NCBI GenBank assembly: GCA_019973155.2
Contig: BPQB01000012.1
Coordinates: 1-64,000 of the forward strand
Direction: 5' to 3'
Origin: Phanerochaete sordida
Lineage: Eukaryota; Basidiomycota; Agaricomycetes; Polyporales; Phanerochaetaceae
DNA: 64,000 nucleotides
Made by a program: the position numbers and the translations under genes. Of the stretch, positions 6,594 to 46,941 are shown piece by piece. The notes beneath the pieces are model-generated. The model was not told the DNA's origin. It did no database searches and saw only the letters and a program-made list of their open reading frames with translations. How positions within the stretch are numbered: the first letter of the stretch is position 1; each line of letters opens with the position of its first letter.

Positions 6594-7407
6594 AGCCGTT
6601 GACTTCTTCCGTGTCAACGCCCCCTTTGAGAGTTCCACTAACCACCGCTTCGCCCTCGATGCATTGAGGAGAGGTCAAGGCCAATTAGAAAAGAGGTACT
6701 GGTACAGAGATTTCTCAGCGGCTGCGCGTATATAGCTTGATTCACCATGATCAAGATGTACTCGAGATGTACTCATCACTATTCACCGCTGGCAGATTTT
6801 AACACAGCTTTTGCAGCACCATAAGGCTTACAACAATATAGACGTGCTATGGCACGGGAGATCTGTTCATCTCTTGTCAAACTTCATCTGAGAATCAGCA
6901 AGTTACTTGGAAAGTCATGTGGGATAGATGAGACGGCGAGAGCGCACAGAGGGTAGTGGTTCTATTTCTACATGCATGAAGCTCTTTGGAAGCACGCTTA
7001 AGCACAAAACATATGATTTGGCTGTGAATTGATGGATTTTTGTTAGAGTAGACCCGGTACAAGACAAGGTACAAGATGTCTTGAACGTCAGTAAGGAGTA
7101 ATCAGCCCAAGCCTTGCTGCTCAAACGAGCCCTGCACCCTAAACTTGTGTATTACGTATCTATACGCCCAATGCATTGAGATTCACATGACCTTTTGCTC
7201 TGTTGCATTCATCAGCTGCCTCGAGCTCTCAATCAAGGCCGTCCAGTATTTGAGAGAGCAGCACATGGCTCTGCAATGACTGGCGTAGGATCCTGGGTCA
7301 GATCCTCCGTGGTAAGGTGTGCTATACGTTACAGTAGAGATAATATTTGCAAGTTGTCATGGGAGGGCACAAGTTATGAAACGGCCTCTGCCCACCCTAC
7401 AGCGCTT
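6594..7407. other. non-coding interior of the outer TIR element
   Basis: This is the part of the outer element to the right of the nested insertion. Open frames are short and no protein family is recognisable. It ends in the right terminal inverted repeat at 7408-7479. Confidence 0.5.
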
Positions 7408-7481
7408 GAGCGCAACCCCAACCGCTCTATGCGCTTCCGCAACGCTTTCGGCATTCGCCTAGCGGAATTGCAAGCTCTCTA

Positions 7482-8090
7482 TTATGGAATCGCTTGTTGA
7501 ACACGGCTCGAGCATGTATGTAGAAGCCCTCGTCATTGTCGTCGTGATCAAGGGGTAGGTTTTTGAGGTCGCGTGCAGTTCATATCAGCTCCAGCATACT
7601 GTCGTTCAGCATGGCCTCCCAAGACTGGAGCTTTGCCGTCTTGATGAGCTGGTGCAACAAGTGCCAATTCCTCTTCATGTGAAGAACAATCTGAACGACG
7701 TTTGGAGAGACAGGCGTTAACCTGTTTGTCTTCTTCTGCGCATCGCAGGCAAGTGCATGTTGTCACGAGTGCATTTCTGTGTGCCATGTTAGCTGTGTCT
7801 TGCGAGCGTAAACTTGAAAGCTGTTCACACCTATGTCCCTCGATACTGAGTCTCTGCAAGATGATAGCGTACCAGCGCAACTCACAGTTTTGCTTTAGTG
7901 TATGCCGTACGCTGTCTGCCGTTGTCTTCGCGTCAAGTTGCTCGCTTCGATTGTGTGACCTATTAAAGAACGACACAATGCACGTTGTACAAGTGATGTT
8001 CTGCTTCATGAGCGGGCACAAGCAGGTGTCCCCAATGATGTTTCCGAATGCATGTAGAAAGCAGCCTAGAGTCTGGAGATGATATGTTAA
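7482..8090 (-). pseudogene. hAT transposase, middle part (split copy 1)
   Basis: The minus strand from about 8090 down encodes the central region of a hAT transposase. CFLHAFGNIIGD and IVSFFNRSH come first, then LKQNCELRWYAIILQRLSIEGHR, a typical hAT segment after the second catalytic residue. After a frame change near 7700 the reading continues as NVVQIVLHMKRNWHLLHQLIK and MLNDSMLELI, with a TGA where Arg (CGA) is usual, and ends FNKRFHN at 7482. The next hAT residues are found at 2001, on the other side of the nested elements. Upstream of about 8090 the similarity is lost, so the BED finger and first catalytic region are missing. Confidence 0.78.
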
Positions 8091-8175
8091 AGCTACCCAA
8101 ACTAGGAGCAAATATAATCCACTTTGGTCCAAGGATACCACTGCTCAAATCTGCGCATGCACTGAAGGCCCTCTG

Positions 8176-8998
8176 GTGCCGCTGCCATCCCCGACATCGA
8201 CCATCTACTTCATGTCCGCCGACAGCACGCACATTCGCGCCTCGATGGACAACTTCAGTATCTACTCTGACATCTTGCAGATTAACGAGCTCAAAGGAGA
8301 GCTCTCATCTGCCAACATCGACGAAGACTACCGCCTGGCCCCGCTCGCGAGTGAGAACGGATACGTGTGTGGCGGTGACCCTTCCGTACCTAACGGTGCG
8401 TATCGGGTCTACCTCAACCGCGCTGACGACGACAGCGGCGAGGAGATGGTGGACGAGCTGAATGCGGACGAGGATGACGATGAATTCTACGCCGACACCG
8501 ACGCCTTCTTTGACACAGCACAAAAACGCTCACCATCAGCCCGGAGCCCTGCACCTCCACGACGTGCACGACTACGACTATAACAACCGCGGCATTCCCC
8601 TTTACGTCCCGAACCCCGAGCAGGCCCTTGCTAGCTACGAGGGCAAAGGCACGCTTGGCCCCTTGGACCTTGCGCTTGACACAGAGCGCAAGGTCTTACT
8701 CGACATCGCACACAAAGAACGACAAGCCACTGTCGATAGCAGGCTCCTTCCGCATCTCGATAGCGTTCGCCATGGCCACCACGGCTACAACCGCGAGGCT
8801 TGGGAGACGGTGTACCCATACCATAACAGGTACGGCTCGCCCTTGCTCTTTTCGGAGGAGCAACTCATGCTTCGCCAGTGCCTCCACTTCTGGAAGACCC
8901 TTCATGAGCCGTGGATCACCGCCTGTCACATTATATGCATTGAATTCGCCCTTCACTTTTGCAGCAACGGCCCCCCAGGCCAGGATAAACAAATTTGA
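8176..8998 (+). pseudogene. degenerate hypothetical gene
   Basis: A plus-strand frame from about 8212 to 8525 has GC-rich third positions and an acidic, Asp/Glu-rich end (ADEDDDEFYADTDAFF). It is followed in the next frame (about 8526-8995) by another open stretch containing GPLDLALDTERKVLLDIAHKE. The two read naturally as one protein broken by a one-base frameshift near 8525. No domain is recognised. An alternative minus-strand frame (8696-9079) exists, but the codon pattern favours the plus strand. It could be an old host gene or transposon cargo. Confidence 0.35.
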
Positions 8999-10091
8999 AA
9001 GATGCGTGACTCCATGCGCCTTGGCCGCTCTGGCCACTCTCGCGAGCTCCTCAGCTTCACATTGTGGCGATTTGCCCACTAATTCGGTATGTCCTCACGC
9101 TGTCTGCAACGACACACAGATCCTTCTCTAGGTTGCGTGCGCCCACACACGAACCTGACGCACGCAACTGCGCCTTGCCAGAACATGTATTTGTATCCCA
9201 GCCTAAGTATCTTAACGTTCAAAGCCCCCAAGTTTATGTCTACGTTGATTCTTTCCATGTTTCTAGGTCTATGCGCTGCGCAGTTCGCTGCGGCTGGTGC
9301 GCTTGGCACTCGCAAGATCGGGCCGACGCGTCTCGTCGCGCCTCTCCTGCCGGCTGGCACATCAACGTCCGACTCCTTCGTCTTGACTGTAGCGTCTTCG
9401 GGCGCGGGGACGGTCTCGAGTGTCAGGCACGGTAACATAGGCAGGATCGTGAATGTATTAGTAGTTCTTGTTTGTCTCTGTCTCATAGTCTATGGCCTAA
9501 AGGCCCTATGTATGTATTTACCCGAGCGGCTCTCCGTGCAAATGAAAGAAGTGTTTACCTTGAACTTATCGCGTGGCGCGTTCGGCTTGCAGCACTTCTA
9601 AGGTACGCGAGACTTGTTATCTCAAGTGACCCCCAAACTTGCACGAGATTTTGAAGTCCCAGTAAGCCGTAGTTGTAGTCCTGTAAGTAAAGTTAGTTAC
9701 CTAGTAAGCCGGTGTGATAGTTACTGCCCTTACGTCGAGCGCGACGCGTGCAAGGCTGAGATGACAGTGATGTCATGCCGGACGCCACCAAGCACGGCCA
9801 GGCACGTTGATCAAGAAGCCTCGGGAGACGTTCGAAGCAGCGCCGCACATCACGCTGGCACTGCATTTGATGTTCTGATGAACGTTGAACGTTATGCACC
9901 GCCCTCGCGCCCGTTGCCATCAATAGCGAGCGCGATTTCCTTATTTGACAGTCCCAACCCCGGCGCAGAGCGCATCAGCGCCCGGCAGGCCGCCGGCGCC
10001 AACCTAGACGCCCATTCACCGCACACTTCAGACTTAATCCTGCAATGCAAAAATGCGGGTGCTAGTCCTATGTCTGCTAGCACCATTCCTC
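8999..10091. other. no gene recognised; probable 5' region of gypsy element
   Basis: Open frames here overlap one another, and none has a recognisable domain. The stretch precedes the gypsy pol frame and may include a decayed 5' LTR and leader. A GTGACCCCCA motif at about 9626 recurs at about 18180 beyond the end of pol, but I could not align any LTR pair. Confidence 0.4.
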
Positions 10092-13035
10092 AAGTAAATT
10101 ATGTAGCTGTTAGCGATGAGTTTAATTACATCAGATGGGATGAAGTGGAACCCATACTCTTCACCTCTGATATGAATAAATTCCTGGAGGAACTGAACAA
10201 AGACGATATGATAATTACCTTCGATGGGGGTAGTTTATTCTCTTCAGCTAAGCCGATGAGCTCTCCCGAAGTCTTGACAGCCTACAAGCGAGTGGATAGG
10301 AAAGTCAAGCCAGTTCTAGCTGTATTTTCTGAGGATGCTAGAGTTACTCGACAATTCCCAGAAGACCCTTTGCTATCGCTGCCTGCGCTACCCACGAAGC
10401 CTCCAGAGTTTGTTCCTGATGGCAGACGGCTTACTCAGGAAAATCTAGACTCAATGAAGCTTAATCCAGAAGGTTTTCTTTGGCCTGAAGAACTCAAGCT
10501 ATTCCAGCATATTCTTCAGCTTAATTAAAACTGCTTTGTATTTGAAGATAGTCAGCAGGAAACGTTCAGAGAAGATTACTTCTCTTCGTATATTATCCGA
10601 GTAGTACCCCACGTACCTTGGGCCTATAAAAATATTTCTATACCTTTAGGAATACATCAGAAGGTCATAGACTTACTTCGCAAAAAGATTGCAGCAGGTG
10701 TTTACGAATCAAGTCAATCGTCTTACCGGTCAAAGTGGTTCTGCGTTCTCAAGAAAAGCGGAAAGCTACATATAGTCCACGACCTTCAGCCACTAAATAA
10801 GGTTTCTACCAGAGATGCAGGGTTACCACCTAACCTAAACAACTTTATAGAACCTTTTGCAGGGAGACAGGTTTACACAGTATTTGATTTGTATTGGGGC
10901 ATCGACACACATAAGGTCCACCCTAAGAGTAGAGACCTTACCGCTTTCCTTACACCCTTAGGGTTGTTAAGGATCACATCACTGCCTACCGGGTTTACCA
11001 ACTCATCGGCAGAATTCCAAGCATGTATGGCATTTATCTTGCAAGATAAAGCAAACATCTTTATTGATGACCTGCCTATTAAAGGACCTGAAACTCGGTA
11101 CAAAGACGAGCAGGGCCAACCAGAGGTGTTAGCAGAAAACCCTGGAATTCGGAGATTTATTTGGGAGCATGCAAATGACGTACATCGTATAGTCCATCGT
11201 GTAGGACACGCTGGAGGGACATTTGCTTCATCTAAGGTTCAGCTAGCCCAGGAAAGGGTAACTATCCTTGGTCAGCAATGTACCCCTGAAGGAAGACTTC
11301 CTGACTCTCAGAGAGTAGAGAAGATCCTTAACTGGCCACCGCTTAAGACACCTAAGGATGTTAGAGGATTCCTGGGCTTATGCGAAACCGTACGACTATG
11401 GATCGAGAATTACTCAGCAAAAGCTAGGCCTTTAGCAGAGCTAATTCAACATGACGCAGAGTTTGAATGGGACGAACGACGTCAAGCAGCTTTTGAAGAG
11501 TTAAAGAGAGCTATTACGTCACCGCCAGCCTTACGACCTATTGATTATGACTCAAAAAATCCCATAGTCCTGTCAGTAGACTCTAGCATTATTGCTGTAG
11601 GGTTTATTCTGTCCCAGTATGATGAGCAAGGAAAGAAACGACCTGAGCGTTATGGATCGATACCTATGAATGAAAGAGAAGCTAGATATTCTCAGCCTAA
11701 GCTCGAATTGTATGGATTATTCAGAGCTTTGCGAGTATATAGACTGTATATTATCGGAGTCAAGAAACTGATAGTAGAAGTTGATGCGAAGTATATCAAG
11801 GGCATGATGAATGATCCAGACCTTCAATCCAACGCTACAATTAACCGTTGAATTCAAGGTATTCTTTTGTTCGATTTTGACTTAGTCCACGTGCCAGCAG
11901 ATAAGCATCGAGGACTAGATGCCTTATCCGGGAGAGAACTAGGAGAAGATGAAGAAGTGGAAAATGAAGACGACACTTGGTTGAATGATATTCCATTACT
12001 TATCCCTGCTCAATGTCATGAGTGGATGAAGAGTGTATCCCTCTTTACTCAGCTAGTCAGTAAAACGCCCAACCAGACTATCTCCACCATCAAGCAATGC
12101 TTGTATAGTGAAGACCCTCCCGTACCAAGCACTGTATTTGCTGCAACAGTAGCCGATCGAGAGCAGACGTTAGTTGACATTTACCATTTTCTGCAGACCA
12201 CAAAGCCACCCAAGCTTGATACCACCCAGGAGAAGCAGCGATTTATCCAGAAAGCTCTAAACTACTACGTTATCGGTAAAGCGATGTTCAAACACCAAGG
12301 CCCAGCCGGACCCACCAAAGTCATATTCAGGGCCAGTAAACGCACAGAGTTACTTCAAGCTGCACACGAAGGGCAAGGCCACTGTGGCGAGCAAGCAGTC
12401 TTAGCTATGCTTAAGCAACACTTCTTCTGGCCAGGAATGCAGAAAGATGTTCACCACCACGTTCAGTCATGTCACCAATGTCAGATTCAAAGTGTCAAAA
12501 AGGCACAAGTACCCATCATGGTCTCTACGCCTTCTACTCTATTCTTAAAGGTGTATGTAGACGTCATGTTTATGCCTCAGACCAAAGGATACAGATGTAT
12601 AGCAGCCGCCAGAGATGACTTGTCCAGAACAGCAGAAGGCCGAGCTATGGGCCAGCCTAACTCAATCTCTATGGCACAATTTATCTAGGAGCAAGTATTT
12701 TGCAGATACGAAGCAGTCAGCCAGATCGTTACGGACAATGGAAGCGAAGTAGAAGCAGCCTTCACAGTTAATGAATTGTTTCGGAATACCTCAAGTTAAG
12801 ATCTCTGCTTACAACTCTAAGGCCAACGGAGTAGTAGAGAGAGGCCATTTCATTATTTGAGAATCAATTCTGAAGGAATGCGTAGGCAAGGTATTAGACT
12901 GGCCTAAGTTTGTGCCTCATGCCTTCTTTGCGGACAAAGTTACTGTTAGACGCCAGAAAGGATATTCCCCATATTACTTACTGCATGGTCAGGACCTAGT
13001 CCTACTATTCGACTTAACCGAATCCACATTTCTTG
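10092..13035 (+). pseudogene. gypsy pol, RT-RNase H-integrase, first part
   Basis: The frame runs from 10092 through a TAA at 10526-10528. It then enters the reverse transcriptase: WFCVLKKSGKLHIVHDLQ, VYTVFDLYWGID, and NIFIDDLPIKGP with the FIDD catalytic box. RNase H (LSVDSSIIAVGFILSQ) follows. A TGA at 11849-11851 stands where the family has Trp. Next come the integrase HHCC zinc region (about 12364-12485, ending SCHQCQIQ) and the core with DVMFMPQTKG. A TAG at 12686-12688 again replaces an expected Trp before TDNGSEV. A frameshift near 12765 precedes the YNSKANGVVERGHF block with the catalytic Glu. The reading ends at about 13035 where foreign DNA begins. It is clearly non-functional. Confidence 0.85.
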
Positions 13036-22902: not shown

Positions 22903-24881
22903 ATAATAATAATGAGATAGTCACCTTCGTCGTTGTGGTATGAGCTAGAGAGCCCCGACGAAGGTGCGCGCGTGCGTTATCCATTCTGTCACTCGTCACA
23001 GTCACCGTCACTGTGTAACACCGTTACAGCAACTTGGTGTATGGTTGCTTGAGCAGCCGTCCATGTAGCGTTTTTGTAAAAGCAGCTAGTATAGTAGTAA
23101 GTCGTTTTGCAAAAAACGCTACTAGGGGTATGTGGGCCAAAAGGGGAGGGACTTCTTTTTAAAAAGGCATATGTTTTTCCGGGGTCATATGTCAGAAAAC
23201 CAAAGTTGTAGAGAACATAGAAAATATCATATCTCTCATTGACAGGTACCCCTCCCGATCAAAACTGAGCCCGCTATTCGCAAAATACCCGCCGGGAGCC
23301 GGCGATGAAAGCATTTGGCGCCCTAGCGCCACCAAGCTGGGCACCTGCCCAAAACGGAAATAAGCGCCATAAGCGAGAATTTGGCTGGCAGGGGTATTCC
23401 AGCTGCTCCCCTGCTCCATCTAGGGGTTGGAGCATGGAGCAAAGTGGTAGATATTGTAGCTAGCAGGTACTGTAGTACTAACCCTCATCTGTGGGGGTGC
23501 CCCAGGGGATGCGAATATATTACGGAATTAACTGGAATTTCGATAAATTTCAAATGCGTGCACTGGGGCACCCTTGGGCCTTTAATGGGGTGTGGGCACG
23601 GTACAACGCATCGTATAGGTACTATAGCATGGGGAAAACCCATATGGAGAGCCCCAGGTCGACCCTAGGGCCCAGCAATATTCAGGGAATTATGCTCGAA
23701 TTTAGGGGAATTAATGCGTCAGGGACAGGGGCTTCCATACTTTCCCCATCGCGTGCCAGACGCGTCGGACGCGTCGTTTACGTGTCATTGGTATGTAGCA
23801 CCATGGGAAAGGTGTTTTGACGCGTGAAACACGTAGGGGAATCTATACAGGGGGTCAAAACCCTCCAAAATCGCGTTCAGGGGGCATTCCCCAGGCTCCT
23901 GCAGCTGCCACAGCGGTCCAATCTTGCTGGGGCTGCGTCAGAATGTGTGTTGGAGCTGTATTACACTATATCCAACGTCTCGGAGCTGTAGGATTGTGGG
24001 GATATAATGTTCCTGGCTCTTAAATGCGCATTTTGGGGCACTTTGGGCCCAAAACACCATATATGCAGCTACCCAGAAAGATCCACACAATACTGGATCA
24101 ATTCCTGCTGCATATAGTGCTTACTCATATGTGACAACATGTTTGAGATGTCCGGACTTGTCCTCCTATCCTACAGCAGCCAGGCACATCCATGCTTTCA
24201 CTTTGGTGTTCTGAAGTGCCCAGAAGCAAACCAAAGGCCACTTTTCGCTTTTGCAGGTATGTACCTCCACCATTTCTCCACCAATTCACCTGCAAATCTG
24301 TACTCCTCCGTTTTCATAGGCTGCGAATCGATCTGAGATACAGCGCCCGCGCCATTCCTAACGGTTGCGCTGCGATCTGGGCGATTTTGTCGAAATCAGC
24401 CAAAAAGCGCCCGTGGGAAACAACCAGATCTGGAGGATCGCATGGGAACGGAGGCGGGGGATGCAAAAGCGAGTATACTGGGCAGTTCCTACACCTTATG
24501 CGATGAGAATCCAGGTGCGTGCCCCACGATATTCACACTTTTTTTTGGCAGATCCTCGCAGGTCCCCTATCACTTCCCTGCCACCCATAGGCTCCCAAAT
24601 CTCTCGTCTAGCTCCTGTAAGGGTTACATAACCCTTTGGCATAGCTGGGAAGGGTTCAGAACCGGTGGAAAGGGTTGCAGGCCGCTTCCAGGCCCAGAAA
24701 AATCGAAATCAAATAAAATCAATCATTTATTATATTCCACAGCGGTTCAATTAGGTCCCTGTCTTCCCCCTATACTATATATACATATTAAACAGTAATA
24801 GACATAGTGTAGAAGCCCCAGGAGGCCAGGGGAGCGAGGGGAAGCAGCAGAAATGGCCCCCAGAAGCAGAGCTGAAGCGCG
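22903..24881. other. gene-free repeat-like DNA
   Basis: I see no convincing coding frame. The stretch contains the palindromic mini-element at 23065-23122 and a short stem made by GGTGCCCCAG near 23497 and CTGGGGCACC near 23561. Otherwise it is featureless. Confidence 0.5.
23065..23122. repeat. 58-bp palindromic mini-element, copy 1
   Basis: The ends GTAGCGTTTTTG and, inverted, GTAGCGTTTTTTGC form imperfect arms of about 17 bp around a TAGTATAGTAG core. A related 59-bp unit with the same ends and core lies at 32839-32897, on the other side of the three-gene cassette. Confidence 0.8.
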
Positions 24882-24896
24882 GCAGATTGACAGTCC
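24882..24896 (+). repeat. GCAGATTGACAGTC motif, copy 1
   Basis: The 15-mer GCAGATTGACAGTCC recurs inverted at 25296-25310. Its first 14 bases recur in direct orientation at 25390-25403. It lies about 1 kb upstream of the nuclease gene. Confidence 0.85.
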
Positions 24897-25294
24897 AAAG
24901 GGGGGCTTACCTAAGTTGTTTGGTCGTGCGTGGAGCAGGCGGCCGGAGGGACGGAGGCGGGAGCAGACGAGTGCGCCGGGAGGCCGAAGCGCGCGGGCGC
25001 GAGGGAATTTGCATCCGCGGGGGCTCCGATCGCGTTGGGACGCGCGACTGGACGCGCGCGGTACGACGACGTGCCTGCCCCGAGGCGCAAGGACGGCGGC
25101 GGCGGGCGAGCGATGAGCGAGGGGTGGTGGTGGTTCGAGTGCGAGGGCGGGGAGGCAGCGGTCAGGCCCAGGCGAGGCCGCGAGGCGCGCGGTCGCCTGC
25201 TGGATCCGTCTGACAATGAGCCTCGAGGCCGGGACGCCAACGCGCGGCGATGCCCGAGCCAGGGAAGGCCAGGGAGGACGTAAAGGCCGCCAGC

Positions 25295-25405
25295 GGGACT
25301 GTCAATCTGCGAGGTGGAAGTAGTCTGCGACACCTCCCAGCCTATCGATGGGCCCCAGCCAAAACCTGCCCCGTCGCTCTTCCCGCCTCGCAGATTGACA
25401 GTCTC
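25295..25405. repeat. inverted pair of GCAGATTGACAGTC motifs (copies 2 and 3)
   Basis: The 23 bases starting ACTGTCAATCTGCGAGG at 25298 are repeated inverted, with few differences, at about 25380-25403. This makes a stem-like unit of about 110 bp with a loop that contains ATCGAT and GGGCCC. A weaker relative, ACCGTCAATCTCGAGCAGG, lies at 32496 beyond the right end of the cassette. Confidence 0.75.
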
Positions 25406-25884
25406 GGGTTTACTGTCCCGCGGGTCAACGCGGGGCGAGGGCCCTTCAAGTACCCGGGCACCCCCCACCTGCCCTGCCCTGCCACGCCGACCGTCCCTCC
25501 TCCCTCGCGCACCTTCTCCCCGGCTGTGCACGCTCCCGCCAGCAGCGCTTCCACCCTGTCTCCACCACTCATCGACCGACTCGCACACTCCTCGCCTGAA
25601 CTCGAGACTGGCGCATCGACATGCCCGCGCCGTCGACATCCTGCCCCAGCGGCGACCTCGCAGCCGGCCTCCACTGCCAGCCGCTCCGCGGCGTCGCCGG
25701 CCATGCTGCAAGGCACCTGAGTGGCCGCGGCTGACCGACACCCAGGCCGCCCGCCCGCCATGCCAGCCTCTGCCAGCCTCCTAGCCATGCCAGCCTCCTA
25801 CACAGACAGCTCCGAATGCCAGTCGCACCCTTACCGTACTACACAACATCGACTACCGCTGCACACGCGCCGTCTACTAGTACC
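25406..25884. promoter_or_regulatory. upstream region of the nuclease gene
   Basis: GC-rich DNA with overlapping low-complexity frames on both strands that I read as chance frames. A short CCAGCCTC tandem occurs at 25760-25800. No TATA box is obvious. I take this as the promoter and 5' leader of the nuclease gene. Confidence 0.4.
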
Positions 25885-28153
25885 ATGGGCGTGAAAGGAC
25901 TCTGGAAGGTGTGTACACTTGGCTGCGTCTGTGCTATCAGGTGCTGATACCAGACGGCTGCCAGCTTCTGGAACCGGCTGTGGAGAAGCAGTCGCTGGAC
26001 AGCGTCGCCCTATGGCACACATTCACGGCGGATGGAAACATCAAGGGCCTGATCCTCGGGATCGATGCAAGGTGAGCACCGCGTCCACCCCGAGGCGATG
26101 TTGGCTCACCGGCTGCACGCAGCATCTGGATCAATTCAATCGTGCAGGCACACAGCGGGAAACGCGAGATCACAAAGGCGAAGGGCGCGAAGGTCATGAC
26201 GGTGCTCCACCGCCTCGCCCGCCTCGCATCCAAGCCGATATCGGTAATCGTCGTGTTCGACGGACCAGCATGCCCTGTTGAGAAGCGGGGACGGAGGGTG
26301 ATGCCAAGCGAGCACTGGATCGTGCAGCCCATCAAAGACTTCGTGCAGGCATACGGCTACGCTGTACATATGGTAAGCATGTGCCCTCCGCTCTAGTCGA
26401 CCAGTCACTTACTGGTGTGAACGACTTCAGGCACCTGGAGAGGCCGAGGCCGAACTTGCAGCAATGAACAAGGCCGGAGTCATTGACGTCGTCCTTACGG
26501 ATGACAGCGATGCGCTCGTTTTCGGCGCCCGCGCCGTAATGCGCAAGTAAGTGGAGCTTCCGCTCACGTTCACAACCGCCGTGTCTCACGACAGCCTCAC
26601 GCAGCCCGGTAGTCAAGGCAGACAAGGGCGACGTATACATGTGCGAGGCGACGAACATCGCCAGCCAAGACCACGTCGCGTTAACGACAGGCGGCCTCGT
26701 TCTCATCGCGTTATTGAGCGGCGGCGACTACGGCCCGGTAAGTGCCTTCGCCGCTGCATCTCGCGAGCTGCGGCTGATTGCTTGTACGCGCAGGGCCTGG
26801 CCAAGTGCGGCGCACGTACTGCACGCGGACTCGCGCGGTACGGCCTAGGCGAAGCCTTGATCGAGGCGTGCGAGCTGGTCAGCGCCGCGCGAGACGCCGC
26901 CGTGGCTGCGTGGCGTGAAGACGTTCGCTCGGTCCTTCGAAACGACCCGCGCAAGCTCTTCAAACAGCGCCAGCCGACGTTGGCCGCCAGCATCCCCGAC
27001 ACCTTTCCTGACGTCGCCATCGTGCGCCTGTACACCCACCCGACGATCTCCACCAATGGCTGGAACCTGCCGCTCTCTTTCGACGTTCATCCTCTTGCGG
27101 TGGACGCTACGGAGCTCGCGCGGCTTTGCCGCGAGCACTTTGGCTGGGGCAACGACAATGACTACACCGTCCTCATCAAGAAGATGGACAAGTTCGTTTG
27201 GCCGGCCGTCGCTCTCCGCGCCGTCATTCGGGGCAGCTATGCAGCACCTCCAGCCGACACCCGGGTGGTGTGTAAGGGCCAGGTGAGTGCACTGCCTTTG
27301 GCTCATTCGTCATCTATGGCACCATGCTCATTCAGGTTCTTGCAGGCGGCGGTCTCGTACGCTGTTGCCCTTAAGCTCACGCCGAACGACCGCAAGAAAG
27401 ACCTGCGCAAGGTGACGCTGCAGACGAACGCCCTCGCCTTGCCCGCGGTCCATGCAGTTGCCACCGCGGCGCGCGCAGCGCGCGGCAACGAAGGCGCCCC
27501 GAACGAGTCGTTCATCATCGCCGTGCTGAAGGCCGTCCCTCCCAATGCTGCGATCACCGTGCCACTCCCAGGTATGCTCGTCCGAGCACTCAATAGGTGT
27601 GTTGTCTATCATCAGAGTGTGTGCCTCGCGTTGCTAATGTGTAACACTATCCAGACCGCTGCCTGCGGCGGCTGCTGCAGCGCCACTAGTGCCAGCACTC
27701 CCCCAGCCTGTGCTTGACGACGAGGACCAGGATGTCGACAATGCCGAAGACATCGGCGGCGACGCAGTCAGCAACGACGAAGATAGCTTCGACGACGATG
27801 TCGGAGGCGGCGGCAATGCGGACGACCATGGCGACGGCGTCGACAGCGACTTCGAGACGTCGTTCTCGGAGTCGTCGGGATCCATTGAGCCTTTCTTCCC
27901 ACTCGCCGGCTCGTCACGCCTCGCAGCTCATGGCGCCGTGTCGTTGGCGGCAGCGGCGACGGCGCCGCCCTCAGCACCAGGTCCTTCGTCAGGCAGCTCT
28001 GTGCATGGGAACGCAGGCCAGGGCCTGGACATCATCGACCTGACGGAGTCACCTATCATCGTGCCCGCCGGCGGCGAAGGCGTCATCGACCTTACTGGCA
28101 ACGATCTCGTCGATCTTACTGGCGACGATCTCGACGATCTCGACTCGGAGTAG
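25885..28153 (+). CDS. FEN1/XPG-family (PIN-like) nuclease with C-terminal IDLT motifs
   Basis: Proposed structure-specific endonuclease of the FEN1/XPG/GEN1 fold. Spliced model: 25885-25908, 25941-26071, 26123-26372, 26431-26546, 26605-26737, 26794-27282, 27346-27596 and 27655-28153, giving 630 residues. It starts MGVKGLW like XPG proteins. Metal-binding motifs are all present: GIDASIW (about 47), VVFDG (about 95), APGEAEAEL (136), LTDDSDAL (157) and GGDYG (about 213). The C-terminal 165 residues are acidic and end with three IDLT/VDLT motifs next to acids (about 591-620), which look like SUMO-interaction motifs. The first intron is only 32 nt, unusually short. No frame is broken. It is convergent with the recombinase gene, with 107 bp between them. 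Agaricomycetes carry many related nucleases of unknown role, so a housekeeping FEN1, Rad2 or Yen1 is less likely. Confidence 0.82.
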
Positions 28154-28260
28154 GATTTGGAACACAAGCGGACCGTCGGTACACGCACGCACACATTTAT
28201 ATGCACACACGTAGTAATGTATAGAAGGCTGTGCAGCATGTACACGGTAGCAGTAGTCTG

Positions 28261-30109
28261 TCATGCACACGGACAAGTACGCCCACAATGAGAACATGGA
28301 TCGGTCTGGGGCCGGTCGGGATTGAAGAAGTCCTCGCGGCGCTCGAGGGGGTTATCTATCCATGACAGCAGGTACTTGAAGAGAGTGCTAGGGTTATCAA
28401 AGGTGGGGGCCCATCCGCCCCAATCGCAAATGCGGCGAAACGACCATCTGCAGACCACGGCGAGCCATTGACAGCCCCCGCGGCGGAATGAGTGAGTACC
28501 GTAAAGGCGCGGATCGATCCCGATGTCAAGCAAATTGTTGCGAAAGCACTCGAGGAACGACGGGCCCTTCTAAGGATCAAGTGCTTGTGAGCATGTGGTT
28601 GTCAGGGACCCAGAGCCACAGCCTCGTACCATGCGTGACCATGCATCTGACGAGAACGAATCAAAGCCAATGCGAGGGCGAAAGACGAAGCCAGATAGAG
28701 GCAAGCCTGCCGTGCGCATGACATCTACCCACTCGGAGTATGCCCGAATTGGGCACATCCATGGTTTCTCGTGGTTTATATAGAGGAAGAAGGGCGCGAT
28801 TCCTGGGGCAGAGCCGTCAGTTTCGCTCTGTAGGGTGCCATGCAGACATAGACAGCTCACCGCCGGTCTGGTGCGTCTTCCGAAAAGGGAGCCGTACCTC
28901 CAGACGGAAGACCCCTGGTCGTGTCTCTGACAGGATCAGATCCGTCCATCGGATATGCAGCGCCTCGTCGTAGCGCAGGAGGCAAAGGAACGCGAGAAGA
29001 TAGAGCAGGGTGAGCATGATACGGATGGTCCGCCCTGCCCACGAGGTCTCCTCAGTCGAGCCTCGCTTCTTCCGAGAGCGTTCTGTCTTCGGAACCGCTT
29101 GATTGTAGTCCGAAAGCTGGTGCAGTACTGACTCCTCCATCGCACGCGCACTCGTGACCGTCTCACCTAATTTTACCTTGCAGAGCGTGTGACATTTGGG
29201 TTAGAACATGCGCAGATCTGGCGCAAATGGTAGGCCACTGACCTTGCGCCGGCGAAGGCTGACCATGTACTGGCTCACGACGGTGGATAGCGACGGGTTT
29301 CCAGTGTACTTGTCCGCTTTCAGTTCGCTCTGCGACCACGTCTGCTGCCCGAGACCGAATTCACGCCCGAATTGATGGGTCATTGCAGCTCGCATCTTCT
29401 GAGCGTGTGAGTAAGACGCAGGCTCGTCCTTCGGGCCCTTCTTCTTGCCTGTGTAAATATCGACGTCGTCGCAGCTGTTTCGGGAGATCAGTTTATGTAA
29501 AGGTCAGGCTCTGTGGCAGGTGACATACGTGTTCATGATCCACATGCAGATATACTCAGGTAACTGGGCTGGGAGGTCCCGAGGATCGAGGGCCGCACCT
29601 TCGGCAAGGAACCTGTTCGCCACACAGAATTTGATGAAGCTCTTCCAGTTTCTAGGGAAGTCAAAGACGATGAGCTCGAGCCCTCAGCGCAGGCACACAT
29701 GAGCTTCTCACCGCTGAAAGGTTGATAGAGTCTGCGCCGTGATGACGTCCCGAGACGCCAATTTCACCGTTTGATGAACATCGTCTGCGGTCAGCTTGCC
29801 TTTCCCCTTCCTCTCATCTACCCCTGCGCTGTGCATATCCCATTAGCATGTTAGATCTCGCAGCAAGTGCAGACTGGCGACGTACGCCCCATGGCTCTCC
29901 CCGCTGTCGCTGTCCTCATCGACATCCATGGCCGCCGCGTCGCCATCTTGATCCTCGTCTGCGGCCTCTACTAGCCTGTCTGCTTCCATGGCGGATTCAT
30001 ACGACTCTCGCTCCTCATCGCCATCGTCTGCTGCGACCTCAGGACTGATCTCTGATTGCGCCTCGTGAAGAATGTGTGCGGCGCCCGCAGGGAGAGTGAC
30101 AGGCGGCAT
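28261..30109 (-). CDS. Crypton-like tyrosine recombinase (DNA breaking-rejoining enzyme)
   Basis: Spliced minus-strand model: 30109-29886, 29828-29712, 29651-29529, 29474-29243, 29176-28861, 28802-28630 and 28569-28261, giving 497 residues with no stops. An acidic N-terminus (about 1-75) precedes a core-binding region (SYSHAQKMRAAMTHQFG, SLRRRK). The catalytic domain follows: CLLRYDEALHIRW holds the first Arg (about 300), YGTHSFRRGGCQWL the His-x-x-Arg (His 421, Arg 424), DWGGWA the Trp/His position (about 448) and LFKYLLSW the candidate nucleophile Tyr (461). The C-terminus has a CSHCGRTCPC cluster. This is the agaricomycete tyrosine-recombinase family related to transposon recombinases such as those of Cryptons. 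It shares a 194-bp divergent intergenic region with the SAP-domain gene. Confidence 0.85.
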
Positions 30110-30303
30110 AATATGTGAAGGTGAGCAAAGTCTCGGCTCCCCGTCCCTGCCCTGCGTCTCATATAAGCCGTCCGCGCCCTGTCCCGATTGTTTGCTCCCG
30201 CTCACCACGAGTGCTTAGCCCCACACTGGACTGTGTCAGGCACACTCGTGGCGAACTCCTTACCCTCTCCTTACCCTGCTGCAACATATCTTATTACCTC
30301 ACA
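30110..30303. promoter_or_regulatory. divergent promoter between recombinase and SAP-domain gene
   Basis: The two ATGs face away from each other across 194 bp, so their promoters must overlap. A TATA-like ATATAAG at 30161-30167 lies about 140 bp before the SAP-gene start, followed by pyrimidine-rich runs (near 30260) typical of fungal start regions. Confidence 0.6.
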
Positions 30304-32151
30304 ATGGCCTCCGGCGCCGATGAGGAAATGCTAAACCTGCCAGTAGCCGGGCAGGTCCTCCACGAAGGCGAAGAAATTGAAGCCTATCAGTATGTGGTGT
30401 AAGTAACCGTCTGCCAGCAGGTTCTTGTCGACGCACTTACGTTTGGTCTCACCATAATGACGGCAGGACAAAGCGAACAACCCGCAATGACCTCAAGGAC
30501 AAGCTGCGGAGCTACGGCCTAACAGTCAGCCGGAATCGCCCAGAGCTGGTGGAGAGGCTGCGAGCATTTGCGGAAGATAGGGATGAGTGGCTCTCGTGAG
30601 TATTAGCTCTGATTGTCGACATTATAGCTGCTCACATTTAATCTCACGCCTCAAGGCTTTTTCGCGGCGAACGAAAGCGCAAACGCGGCGCCGTTTCAGG
30701 AACGCGGACGAAGACGACGTCAGCAAAACGCATCGCAAGCATGTTCACAATGCATCGCGCACCTGACGAGCCTGCGGAGTTCGCATACCGCTACGAACAC
30801 GACCACCGTCCTATAGATACGGTGCCGAAAGCGACAGCAACGCATCTGTACACACTGGTGAGTACTGCCGCTGCCTTTGGAAGTGCCGACGCTCACTCTT
30901 GATAGGTCGACAAAGTCCTCGCCCTAGGACGAGCGCCGCAGCGACCTCCCGCAGCTTTAGAAGACGCTACGGAGCATCCTCAGCAAGCCGCGGCCGATGT
31001 TCAGGCGGCGCAGAGTGAACCAGTCGAACCCAGCTCGGTGGTGGACCAAGGCGGTGCCGCCGCGAGCGGTCCTGCTGTGTTCGACCAACCGCCGCCGCTG
31101 ACGTACACAGTGAGCCGTTCGTCCACGAGTGTTAGCACTCACTCACCCTATACCAGCATGTTCTCAGCCGCAAGGTCCTTCGCCAGCTGACGACCCTGAA
31201 CAGCCGCGTGCAGGGCATCGAAGCCCTCATGCTATCCACCGTCGCTAACGGTCAGGTAACGCACAGCGCACCTGCCCCGCAGCAAGGTGCACCACCCGTT
31301 ACCTTACCGGCACCGACGGCGGCGGCTCAATCACTGGCCGGCAGTGTCGCTCAACCCACGCCCTCTGCATCCGACCCTCCCGGCGCGGCTCGCGTTCACC
31401 CAACGACCACTCACCGTGACGCTGAACATGCGGCGGCGCCAACCCTTGGCAGTCCGGCCGCGGCCCTGCCCGCCGTAGGGCCCCTTTTGGCTGCAGCAAT
31501 GCTTCCACCAGTGGCCGCTATCGCCCTCGCAGCGGCGCCTGTGCCGAAGACGTATGCGCTGACCTTGACGATCAATGACGAAACGGTCACCTTCGACGCC
31601 CGGCTCGTACCTGATCCCCCCCTCCGCCATTTCTCGAAGCAGCTCGACGAGCTCTTCGTCCACTGGTACTCCTCGACGCTGCTGATGATCTGCGGGCGTG
31701 GTATACCTGTCCGACACTGGGCGACCGTGTACAAGACCTTGAAGCGCATGAAACTGCGGCCTAAGGCCTGGGACGCGATTAAGGTTGAGTGGGGGAACTG
31801 GAAGGTGCGTGACTGCCATACCCTCTTCGTCTGCTCGGGCTGATACAAAGCTGCGGTAGTTTGTTGTCGATGTCATGGAGCAGAAGGGCTCCGTGAACGC
31901 ATTCTGGGCCGCCTACAAGAGCGATGACGGCTCGCGGCTGTCGTTCCAAGCCATACGCCGTCGACGCTGCGGCAGCAAAGGCGTTCTTCGGCAATGACCT
32001 GGACCACCCGGATGCGAAGAACGTCTTCCGCTACGTCAAGACTGGTCAGTCCATGCTTATCACGAAGAACGCGGCCATAGCAGAGAAGTGGCGGAACCTC
32101 CTCAAGAGCGACCCTGCCTTGCATCAGCGGTACCTCGAAGGCCACCGTTGA
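30304..32151 (+). pseudogene. SAP-domain DNA-binding protein, late frameshift
   Basis: Exons 30304-30398, 30467-30595, 30656-30857, 30906-31109, 31157-31804 and 31860 onward fit one frame. Residues about 33-70 form a SAP motif (DLKDKLRSYGLTVSRNRPEL then VERL), which binds DNA in chromatin proteins. A basic segment (RGERKRKRG) follows, then an Ala/Pro-rich linker. A Trp-rich C-terminal region (HWYSSTLLMICGRG, VEWGNWK) is perhaps analogous to the DNA-binding domains linked to Crypton recombinases, but I cannot place it in a family. Near 31965 the frame stops making sense. The following, clearly related sequence (KAFFGNDLDHPDAKNVFRYV) is in the next frame and ends at a TGA at 32149-32151. This suggests a frameshift or small deletion, or a sequencing error. 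Confidence 0.65.
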
Positions 32152-33484
32152 GCAGCAGTGGTATCTAGCAGCCTCGTACGCAGTCTGTTTGCGTGCACGT
32201 CGCAGCTGCTCGGTTGCGAAGGGCATGGCGAGACGCAGTCGCCGCGGCGTCGCGTCGTCGTCGGACTACCGTACTGGTCCATTTAATACGCTTATTTTTA
32301 CCTCTATCCGCTGTATATACGCCTTTACAATCTTATTAATGCCTTTACATGCCTCTGCGTGCGTCCTAGACGTCTCAGTCGTGGTGCACGACGCTCTCAG
32401 CCCTCGCGGGCACGTTCGGCCGTTGCCGCGCGCACGCCTGCCAAATGCGGCAGGCGTCTCCCTGGCCCGAAACCGTAGGGCGCTTGCACAGTCCAACCGT
32501 CAATCTCGAGCAGGAAGCGAAATTGATGCCCATGACCGCATTGGGCGCTTCCCGGACAGGTACCCGGTTGGCCCGGTCAGGGTCTCCTTTGTGGCGCTGA
32601 TGCGCTGATGGCGGCACCGGGAGGCCGCACTAAAGCCGCAAAGACTCGGCTCCCCGCCGTTCTTTTGTGAATAACTCCTCCCCTGTCCATTTTTGGGCTG
32701 TCTCCTTTTGGAATATGTCTTTCCGTTAAGCTGCGCAGCTTTCCAGACAGTTTCGAAAATAGGCGCCCGAAACAGTCCCTTTTAAAAACACACCCCTGTA
32801 AATGCCCGGAAAATGCGTTATATTGCCAACTAGGGCTTGTAGCGTTTTTTGCTAAACGATTTATTAGTATAGTAGGGACGTTTTATAAAAGAGCTACATG
32901 GTCTGGTGGCTTGAGGTGCAACCTCTCGACACAGCACGACTGCGCGGAGCAAGGCTCTTTGGCATACACAGTTGCTTCGAGGTGCAGCTCTGAGGCGTAC
33001 ACTAGAAGGCTCAAAGGTTTGAGAGCCTTAAGGTAGACTAGAGCTTTGAGAAGGGCTCGTGTGTAAGGGCGGCAAAGCACCCAGACTGACGCCTGACCTA
33101 AGCGCACGCCCGACGGGCTTGCGCTCAGGTCGACGAGTGCCTGATGCCGCGCGCAAGGCACATCAAGTATTGCCGATGGACTCACCGTATATAGACATAG
33201 TACGGTACAGTTAGTGATCTCTATTAAAAGTGAGGGCCCAGCCACCGAGGCTGAGTACTCACACATATTGTATTAACTTAGATCGTCTTGAATACAGACG
33301 CGGTCCAGATTCTTACGTCGTGTGACTCAAGTTCTTACACTTTTTTGAACCTCCAAAACAAGTCAACAATTCGATAACAATCAATGAGTCTGAGCTGAAC
33401 ACACACACTTGCTGTTTATCGTGCAGTACACACATCACACTCAGCATAACCAAACAAAAACCAAGGCTCCAATACTACTCCAGT
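32152..33484. other. gene-free region, possible gypsy leader or LTR
   Basis: No coding frame is convincing. Features seen are a weak copy of the GTCAATCT motif at 32496-32517, the palindromic mini-element at 32839-32897, and a TATATAG near 33187 followed by a run of short pyrimidine tracts up to the gag-like ATG. The last about 500 bases may be the decayed 5' LTR and leader of the following gypsy element, but no partner LTR exists in the window. Confidence 0.4.
32839..32897. repeat. 59-bp palindromic mini-element, copy 2
   Basis: Begins GTAGCGTTTTTTGC and ends AGAGCTAC, with the same TAGTATAGTAG core as the unit at 23065-23122. The arms are less perfect here. Confidence 0.75.
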
Positions 33485-44026: not shown

Positions 44027-46191
44027 TCATTGCTCGTGTGCAGCGGGCCCGCCGAGGGACGCCATCCAAATACGCGTTTTGTACAATCTACGGTCACGCG
44101 ATCAGCATGGACAGCGACAAACAGGCAGCCTAAGCGAAACGCACCTGAACAGTTCACGCACAAGCTCGCGGAAGTCGATGCGCTTCTCCGCGATGAAGTA
44201 GAATGTGAGCTTGCGCCGGTCCCTGGTGGCACACGACACAGTCAGCTCCTGCGGTCGCGCACACGAGCGGCTGGCACTCACCACTGGTACTCCGCATCGA
44301 CGACCTCCATGGGCAGCTTGCGCTGCTTGACTTTTGAGCGGCAGAGCTCCAGAGCCTTTGCCTCGTCTCCGATCTTCTGCACGAGCCCCTGCGTGTGCTC
44401 CGCGCGCGCCTTCTCGTAGATCTGCTTCGGGTTGATCTCCTTCGCGCCCTGGCCCGTCGGGCTCGTGGGCATCTGCCCCTGTGCCTCCGCGTAGCTGCTC
44501 ATGACCTTCTGCTGGCGCTGGAACTCCTCGACCTCCGCGAGTGTGATCGTGTCGTTGACGACCTTGCCCAGGTCACGCCCACGGTCGGCCTCGACGATGA
44601 CGAGATCACCGACGCGGATATCGAGCCCGAGGTCCGTGCAATAGAACAGATCCGTGCGGCCGGCCTTGAACTCGACGATGTACAGTGGCCAGCTCATCGG
44701 CACTGCGTGGAGGGGCACGCCCTTGCCAAGCTCAGTGATGCTCTTCGCCGCGTCGGACGCGCGGCGCTGCATCGCGCCGCCCGCGTAGTTGCTCCTGAGC
44801 TGGCCGCCAGGCGTGATCGGCGTGGGGAGGAGGCTCGCCTCAGGGATGTGCTGGATGCCCTGGCCGGGGACGAACCGCGCTGTCAGGCCGCGTCCGACAT
44901 TCTCGCGCTGCGGCGGGTACTCGCCCTCGAGCTGATGCCGGCTCGGGCTGCCGCCACTGAATGCGCTTTCGCTTGGCGAGCCTACTGCGCCGCTGCGGTA
45001 GCCGCTCGCGGTGCCGCCGGGAATGTTGAGGTGCAACGGCTGGTAAGGCGAGAGGCGTTCGTAGGCGGGACTGCGCGCAAGGCCTGTGCCGCTGGGGAGA
45101 GACGACGGCGAGGCCGCGTTTGCGAGGTGAGGAGAGCGGGCGGTCTCTGCGCCGAGTGAGAGCATGCCAAGGTCGCTCGCGAGGTCGTCATCAGTGAGGA
45201 GGAGTCCGCCGCCACTGCTGCTTGTAGACGAAAAGCTGTACGCGGCTGAGCGACTGTGCTGCACCGGGTCGTCTGGGTCCAGCCCAGGGGCATTGAAGCC
45301 TACGACAGACGGGCGAGGGCGGGCAATAACGCTGACGCTGTGTCGGCGGGAGGTCGTGCCGCTACCGCCGCCGCCGTTCTCATCAGAACCGCCGCGCGAC
45401 AACCAGGGGTCTCGGTACGGCTCGTCCATGATGTGCTGGAGATCGCGAACAAACGGGCTCATGTTGGATTGGTCCGTCAGGCTGACGCCATGTGAGTAGC
45501 CGTTCGAGGGTGAGCGGCCCAGTGCGCCCAAGCTGCCGTAGCGGCTACTGCCCGTTGGTTTGAGATTATCGTACCGCGCGCTGGGCCCCGGGATCTGGAG
45601 CGGGTTTGAGCCGGAGAATGCGGGGTCGTTCCACAGCGCGGCGCCGTTAAACGAACCAAGGCCGGGACGGGTGGTGGTCGCGACCGACTGGGACCGACTA
45701 CGCGTCATATCCGCAGCAAAGGTGCGCCCGCGACCGGGTATGCCTGAGCCAATGGCGGGCGGGGACGTGCCGTAGTAGCGGTCATCGTAGGGGTCGTTCA
45801 TGTCAGAGAGCGCTTCGGACTCGTCATCCTCGAATGTGGACGCAAAGCGCGAGTCGCGCATGGTAGAAGGGAACGCGGCGCCGGCTCTAGCAGAGAACGA
45901 AGAGCTGCGGGTCGGTACCGATGACGGTAGGCCCGGCTGGAGTGAGGAGTCGGGATTGAGACCGGACGAGAACCGGGGCCAGACTCCGGGACCTCCTCCT
46001 GAATTGGTGCGCATCGATTGAAGGGAAGGCGACGCGAGAAAGGCTTGGGAAGCAGAGGTACGCGGAGGCTGGCTGGCGGCACGCTCGCGAAGGCTGAGGG
46101 TATTAGGCGTGTCGGTGCCGCTAGAGGACAGGAAGCGGTTGGTGCGATCCGCACCGTCACCCGAGGGCTGGTTCGCGTGAGTAGACTGCAT
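44027..46191 (-). CDS. PSP1-domain protein
   Basis: Spliced model 46191-44282, 44222-44145, 44087-44027, giving 682 residues. The first about 480 residues are Ser/Pro/Gly-rich and probably disordered. The C-terminal PSP1 domain is clear: LFYCTDLGLDIRVGDLVIVE, DRGRDLGKVV, then ELCRSKVKQRKLPMEVVDAE, LTFYFIAEKRIDFRELV and the final LYKTRIWM. Yeast Psp1 was found as a suppressor of DNA polymerase mutations and is a cytosolic, granule-associated protein; the biochemical role is unclear. The reading frame stays open upstream to about 46370 without an ATG, and an intron (acceptor near 46323) may lie in the 5' leader, so the start at 46191 is the first in-frame ATG rather than proven. Confidence 0.9.
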
Positions 46192-46941
46192 AATGCGACT
46201 CGAGGGCTTGCCGAGGTTGGAAGACAGATTATGATTTTGCACGGTCGCCGGGATGGAGAAGGGCGGTGCAGGGGAGGTACGCTGGTCTACGGCGATTGAG
46301 GGCTGTATGGGCGTGAAATCTGCGGGGAGGGTAAGGACGAGAGACGAAAGGAGGCAGCGGAGTACGCACAATGAGACGTCTCTGGCCGTCGGTCGTCGTG
46401 AGTCTAGGCCGTGAATGCAACTCTAGGGGGTGATACAGCGTGCGTTGGAAAGCAGAGCAAGTCGAGAGCGGGGAGGCAGGCGAGGCGTGGAGGCGGTCGG
46501 ATTAGCGTGGACCTCAGCGGGGGAGGTGATGGTTTGAGAGAAAGGAAGGCTAGGGCTCTGAATTGGCCTGGAGGGAGTGCATGATGCTGTGGGCAGCTGA
46601 CAGTGTCTGCCCCCGGCTCATACTCGCCAGGACGCTGCGTCCAATAGACGCCTCCCCCTTTTCGACATAGGGTCGATCCCCGCGCGCACGCCTCCGCCCA
46701 CGAGCACACGCGACCACGACCTCCGCGCGAACGACGCCCCCCACGCCAAGCAGCACCCCCTCGACGCTGTCCTCGACGCTCTCAGGGGCCGTCTGGGCGT
46801 CCTTGATCCGCCCCGCAGCCTCCCGTCGGTCCGACGGCTACCGGATTCGGACCTCGATCAAGCGGGCCCAGCATCCCACACGACTCGCACGCATGTTCCT
46901 AGACCTGCAGAAATACATAGCATCTACCTGCACACAGAACG
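46192..46941. promoter_or_regulatory. promoter and leader of PSP1-domain gene; 3' end of Mtf2-like gene
   Basis: No separate gene is supported. A likely leader intron with a GTGCGT donor near 46370 and acceptor near 46323 precedes the PSP1-domain start on the minus strand. Frames at 46404-46756 are GC-rich and I treat them as chance. Confidence 0.45.

Follow-up and report, generated by a model that had tools for sequence, protein, structure and literature searches.

When a tyrosine recombinase such as Cre, Flp or lambda integrase acts, a Holliday junction is formed after the first strand exchange, and how eukaryotic tyrosine-recombinase DNA transposons gain copies is, to our knowledge, an open question. 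As described in the available text of the respective papers, Cryptons are DNA elements of low copy number that encode a tyrosine recombinase with its catalytic residues and no reverse transcriptase, are flanked by short direct repeats of 4, 5 or 6 bp, have gene-less derivatives and in some cases carry an extra gene, with C48 peptidase genes as an optional component (PMC3212892, Kojima and Jurka 2011); Starships are Pezizomycotina elements of up to ~700 kb that are run by a tyrosine recombinase and have other genes aboard (PMC12134995); and Ngaro/DIRS elements bring a tyrosine recombinase into agaricomycete genomes (PMC3783388). Here, a mobile element of 7,646 bp from Phanerochaete sordida is described, which carries genes for a tyrosine recombinase, a GEN1/Yen1-type nuclease and a SAP-domain protein. 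The window, i.e. the whole 64-kb stretch that was analysed, is the start of a 663-kb contig (C12) in a 40.8-Mb assembly of this white-rot fungus. We put at roughly 0.7 the probability that the element is a Crypton-like DNA transposon whose nuclease is active in movement, whichever of two candidate substrates it cuts. We infer from the sequence that a Holliday-junction resolvase was captured by the element, and the ways in which the nuclease may help are set out below on the same footing.

The element resembles Cryptons in being a DNA element with a tyrosine recombinase, low copy number, 5-bp flanking direct repeats, gene-less derivatives and additional genes; the likeness rests on these features rather than on a placing of the recombinase on the Crypton tree. 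It differs from them in having two extra genes, one for a GEN1-type nuclease, as well as an inverted subterminal motif and an internal inverted pair. GCR1_C, the DNA-binding domain of CryptonF, was absent from the window recombinase and the SAP protein (Pfam, E ≤ 1) and from a related recombinase on contig C13 (E ≤ 5); because this domain was tested for and found absent, the element is Crypton-like and not a CryptonF. Neither reverse transcriptase nor DDE transposase was found in the three gene products, in which Pfam detected XPG and SAP families only, the scan covering these products and not the ~1.0 kb and 0.36 kb of the element outside genes. The lack of reverse transcriptase and RNase H among the three genes also sets it apart from Ngaro/DIRS elements. 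Starship captains are DUF3435 proteins; no DUF3435 domain was found on the recombinase here (Pfam, E ≤ 1), and the element measures 7.6 kb. In one open-access library, no description of a nuclease-bearing tyrosine-recombinase element was found by titles and abstracts, and in the available main text of the Crypton survey (PMC3212892) no word beginning 'nuclease' occurs, words such as endonuclease falling outside that search.

Mapping of the insertion

DNA searches of the genome with both flanks showed that the sequences up to 24867 on the left and from 32514 on the right belong to a single ~2.2-kb repeat, as its left part (23054..24867) and its right part (32514..32908). Among the copies listed, the left match extends to the junction in 25, and in all 25 the site is empty, the right part directly following the left with an overlap of 4–6 bp; such repeat-copy counts are lower bounds, and partial copies that end before the junction were left out. 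The three-gene unit is thereby seen as one insertion of 7,646 bp (24868..32513) inside a multicopy repeat. Junction letters were compared in 11 distinct repeat copies, drawn from 18 loci of which 7 were second views of the same copy; they were CCAGAAGCGAAATTG in 10 copies and CCAAAAGCGAAATTG in the remaining one. The empty site has one GAAGC; the filled site has GAAGC on both sides, at 24863..24867 and 32514..32518. When parts of the insertion (24868-26000 and 31500-32513) were used as genome DNA queries, no further copy was found among the matches listed.

A preliminary description of this locus had not seen the ends of the unit, which prove to be sharp, and had offered two readings of it. 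The first, an undescribed type of recombinase-borne mobile element, is supported by the exact ends, the filled and empty sites, the gene-less relatives that share these ends and the occurrence of the nuclease–recombinase pair at two other loci. The second, a domesticated rearrangement system, was not supported because the three genes lie together in a single insertion within a multicopy repeat. A domesticated host locus for programmed rearrangement or repair would agree with single copy number and with nuclease and recombinase genes that are open and multi-exon; it is hardly credible given the insertion, the ends shared with gene-less relatives and a SAP gene that runs out of frame.

The host repeat itself is element-like, being ~2.2 kb long with inverted ends of ~74 bp that are 78–79% alike, and at least 25 further copies show 81–94% identity over the left part.

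Termini and short gene-less relatives

Near the ends of the insertion lie the left terminal motif AGATTGACAGT (24884..24894, + strand) and, inverted relative to it, the right terminal motif AGATTGACGGT (32496..32506, − strand), both exact matches to AGATTGACRGT. Cryptons in general lack terminal inverted repeats. Here the termini are asymmetric: the motifs sit inward of the ends, by 16 bp on the left and by 7 bp on the right, and the bases at the very ends do not form an inverted repeat. Two more motif copies (25298-25308, −, and 25392-25402, +) are held in an internal inverted pair at 25294..25406, with 24-nt arms that are 92% complementary and 65 nt apart. All 4 exact matches to AGATTGACRGT in the 64 kb fall within the insertion; with one mismatch allowed there are 6 matches where 1.37 are expected, and none of 100 shuffles reached 6.

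The left terminus was found with 0 mismatches at four places (window, C7, C16 and C85) and with 3 mismatches at a fifth, and the right terminus at the same four with 0, 2, 1 and 0 mismatches in the order window, C7, C16, C85; reversed control patterns of the termini gave no match in the genome. The elements on C7 and C16 are short, 743 bp each and 95% identical, and no genes were found in them on inspection by eye. The C85 short element is ~2.1 kb and interrupted by other DNA, and C180 holds a partial short-element copy (81%). Similarity of the 743-bp elements to the window element is confined to the termini and to the internal pair, which is kept in the gene-less relatives; as a DNA query, a short element matched the window insertion solely at the internal pair. 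For the elements of the window, C16 and C85, this pair gave a better fold than any of 200 shuffles (z = −6.1, −3.9 and −4.1), while the terminal stretches of the window element folded no better than shuffles (z = 1.66 and −0.90).

The left flank reads GAAGC in 4 of the 4 elements with this left terminus, and the right flank GAAGC in the window, GAAGT at C16, GAACT at C7 and GAAGC at C85, so that GAA(GC) is taken as the putative recombination core. Five-bp target duplications are known for DDE-type transposases and retroelement integrases, and insertion by such an enzyme, with the recombinase as cargo, would account for the 5-bp repeats and fit the 11-bp terminal inverted motif. Against this explanation stands the same GAAGC at all four left ends; moreover, no DDE transposase, reverse transcriptase or integrase is encoded by the three gene models, which occupy the greater part of the insertion. 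We consider it very improbable.

The recombinase and nuclease genes

Hand-built gene models placed all three genes where the preliminary description had put them, in the same orientations and with the same gaps: 107 bp from stop to stop between nuclease and recombinase and 194 bp from start to start between recombinase and SAP gene. All three are multi-exon, as had been claimed, and the recombinase is uninterrupted; the SAP gene is not clean, its end being out of frame relative to the protein P0189.

The Cre-like tyrosine recombinase gene (28261..30109, − strand) encodes 497 amino acids (aa) in 7 exons (30109-29886, 29828-29712, 29651-29529, 29474-29243, 29176-28861, 28802-28630 and 28569-28261). 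Its product contains R300, E303, K332, H421, R424, W448 and Y461, which we take to be the counterparts of the Cre active site, and has a Cys-rich C-terminal tail. The family fold is Cre-like; no Pfam family was matched by the window recombinase at E ≤ 1, and a relative, P0005, matched Phage_integrase at 2e-5, just below the cut-off.

The nuclease gene (25885..28153, + strand) has 8 exons (25885-25908, 25965-26071, 26123-26372, 26431-26546, 26605-26737, 26794-27282, 27346-27596 and 27655-28153) and encodes 622 aa, identical to public protein P0121, 'Flap endonuclease GEN 1-like protein [Phanerochaete sordida]'. It had earlier been called an XPG-type nuclease; XPG_N (6.6e-9) and XPG_I (2.3e-17) were indeed found by Pfam, and the protein is best described as GEN1-class. 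A search of solved structures gave 6grb and 5cnq as best matches (~1e-41; deposited as 'nuclease-like protein'), presumably Chaetomium GEN1, followed by XPG (2.9e-15), archaeal FEN1 (7e-9), EXO1 (1.6e-7) and human GEN1 (5t9j, 4.9e-7). Acidic residues that we assume to have the active-site role align with those of 6grb. The nuclease is thus like the GEN1/Yen1 resolvases in domains, aligned acids, best solved match and its branching with GEN1; it differs from them in lacking GEN1_C, in a tail with repeated (I/V)(I/V)DLT motifs and in being encoded by a mobile element, and its cutting of junctions is predicted.

A tree was built by a quick method, with SH-aLRT support only, from 43 rows comprising 39 of 67 public matches and 4 loci of this genome. 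The window nuclease was joined by those on C13 and C75 and by 11 rows from other fungi in one clade (support 96), whose members we believe to span Polyporales, Agaricales and Boletales. Pfam found no GEN1_C (PF18380) in the window nuclease, and precomputed domain annotations show none in the 12 other public proteins of the clade, several being incomplete sequences, so that 13 public clade proteins are without it; all 24 GEN1_C rows fall outside the clade. Because the clade is nested among basidiomycete GEN1_C proteins (support 92 for the branch holding all), the element nuclease would most simply be a host GEN1 gene captured once. Two further nucleases of this genome, on C53 and C107, group with GEN1_C proteins, and the positions of P0176 and P0138, on long branches, are unsure. 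C107 had been considered as an element-like nuclease and was rejected, since the tree joins it with a GEN1_C protein, P0157 (66% identity); it was used as a control. A distant XPG piece on C43 (120 aa used, end branch 3.73) has an unsure place in the tree, and no recombinase was found in the stretch fetched around it. Two XPG loci on C10 were left out of the tree.

The nuclease tail carries three (I/V/L)(I/V)DLT motifs (28031..28120, + strand), a number reached by none of 500 shuffles; we suppose that they are possibly SUMO-interacting. Repeated (I/V)(I/V)DLT motifs were also seen in the tails of P0122, P0123, P0125, P0173 and the C75 nuclease, and GEN1_C proteins, too, often end in a single such motif. 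Among clade tails at least 30 aa long, 8 of 12 have one motif or more, as do 12 of 24 GEN1_C proteins, for which reason the idea that they are peculiar to the element clade was rejected; at least two are present in 6 of 12 and 2 of 24, respectively. Some oomycete Cryptons encode an Ulp1-like protease, according to the available text (PMC3212892), which, beside the possibly SUMO-interacting motifs found here, may be more than coincidence.

Recurrence of the gene pair

With two recombinase queries, five recombinase loci were found in this genome: the window, C13, C75, C85 and a second locus on the window's contig at 499 kb (C12:499 kb). A clade nuclease lies near the recombinase at three of the five, and all three clade nucleases found in the genome adjoin a recombinase, compared with neither of the two host GEN1 genes. 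At C13 and C75 the nuclease is followed by the recombinase on one strand, with 298 and ~320 bp between them. The C13 and C75 recombinases are 34–57% identical piece by piece, and that of C13 matches the window recombinase over ~55 residues only. Recurrence of the gene set thus extends, within the same genome, to nuclease and recombinase at C13 and C75, in another order, and not to the SAP gene, which is not beside the other nuclease–recombinase pairs of this genome.

Beyond this genome, at least 2 of 11 clade rows share a contig with a recombinase of the same species, compared with 0 of 24 GEN1_C rows; the link is one of same contig only, matched by identical contig size. These contigs are from Cubamyces sp. 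BRFM 1775 (132,787) and Lentinus brumalis (289,864), and 120 of 243 recombinase matches were used in the comparison. Among viral contigs, 45 stretches matched a pattern and none was a relative.

These counts bear on another explanation, by which the element is Crypton-like and moves by ordinary cut-and-paste, and its nuclease is a passenger that takes no part in movement and perhaps keeps recombinase damage in check. The C85 and C12:499 kb recombinases, which have no nuclease within the fetched stretches, fit this explanation, as does the optional C48 peptidase gene of oomycete Cryptons, another extra gene (PMC3212892, available text). A shared role is instead indicated by the 3/3 association in this genome and by a clade that spans three orders, and a pure passenger appears unlikely.

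C85 and C12:499 kb show a second architecture, in which the recombinase has a convergent partner gene (L042, 5421-6790, +, with about 8669-7064, −; L044, recombinase + from ~4300 with partner − from ~6785). The two partner genes are related to each other (blastp 2e-18), and neither was matched by a Pfam family at E ≤ 5. In the recombinases of C13 and C75 (L041, 5466-2923, −; L045, ~6749-9480, +), the C-terminus is lengthened by a long extension, of which the final ~100 aa are conserved; for C13 no meaningful Pfam match was obtained at E ≤ 5.

The SAP-domain gene

The third gene (30304..32151, + strand) was modelled with 6 exons (30304-30398, 30467-30595, 30656-30857, 30906-31109, 31157-31804 and 31860-about 31955); it is in frame to ~31955, and a conserved C-terminal stretch lies beyond in another frame. 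Pfam SAP scored 5.3e-5 and 23.2 bits, just under the 23.9-bit cut-off. Relative to P0189 (44% identity), the gene is 35 nt shorter at ~31953-31962 (10 vs 45 nt), which shifts the frame of the conserved last part. The public model P0188 differs there, having an extra 58-bp intron-like gap (31893-31950) as well as a late start. A structure model of the SAP protein was poor (mean pLDDT 38.8). One domain shared by the SAP protein C-terminus, the C13/C75 recombinase extension and the C85 and C12:499 kb partners was looked for by profile comparison of two-sequence alignments and rejected (probabilities 0.3–1.8%).

Proposed mechanism of movement

In the route proposed here, the recombinase would excise the element as a circle with junction core GAA(GC) and insert it at matching sites, and the SAP protein would bind the motif copies and assemble the ends. 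The nuclease would cut either the four-way junction that follows one strand exchange or a cruciform formed by the internal inverted pair, cruciforms being GEN1/Yen1 substrates. The second recombinase strand exchange would then be dispensable, and copy gain through replication or repair may follow, in that a junction cut by a GEN1-type enzyme would leave products for these processes to finish and so possibly yield a copy. The three short elements, which retain the internal pair as well as the two ends, would depend for their movement on proteins supplied in trans.

One form of this proposal is that the nuclease cuts the cruciform of the internal pair, that the resulting break drives repair-based copying and that the recombinase only integrates. 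Little sequence apart from the internal pair is shared by the window and short elements, and this pair folds with z of −6.1, −3.9 and −4.1 in three elements, as given above; it also carries the terminal motif and so may be a mere protein-binding or control site, and the C13 and C75 stretches have neither the 11-bp motif nor, among the inverted pairs listed (seeds of 11), one of similar length and closeness. We regard this form as possible and hold it tentatively. Equally tentative is a broader proposal, that these elements make up a separate group of eukaryotic tyrosine-recombinase transposons with their own resolvase, captured once from a basidiomycete GEN1 gene, and a conserved cruciform-forming site, leading to replicative movement.

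Several points weigh against a Crypton-like transposon with an active nuclease. The full-length element is single-copy in this genome, so that its ends are read from one full-length copy, and it is known here from the sequence of one assembly. Gene order varies, being tail to tail in the window and head to tail at C13 and C75, where ends were not found, DNA searches with the entire loci yielded no filled/empty pair that could be used and the 11-bp motif is missing; the two nuclease-free recombinase loci and the contig-level nature of the other-species link count on the same side, and the nuclease could be cargo. Human GEN1 ranked below XPG in the structure search, so that the assignment to GEN1 depends on the 6grb/5cnq matches and on the tree. 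The genome holds no further copy of the SAP gene, whose only independent relative among the matches listed is P0189; as the gene is out of frame at its end, this copy of the element may be unable to move unaided. The autonomous partner of the short elements may be a sister of the window element.

The question of copy gain becomes directly testable with an element that brings a Holliday-junction resolvase, whose ends are defined and for which there are both empty sites and short passengers, and replicative movement by way of the resolvase, if true, would answer how such elements multiply. The locus further points to transposon capture of a core host repair enzyme, and may explain some mushroom-genome proteins named 'DNA breaking-rejoining enzyme' and 'PIN domain-like'.

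Surrounding sequence

The preliminary description had held every other element around the unit to be broken. Ten open frames were sampled, and this was true of a gypsy-type polyprotein (10529-12688), whose consecutive frames are split by stops; it did not hold for a Tc1/mariner-type transposase frame of 328 aa (2290-3276), which is open over its DDE_3 match. A PSP1-domain gene at ~44 kb (44278-46422) perhaps marks where the repeat island ends.

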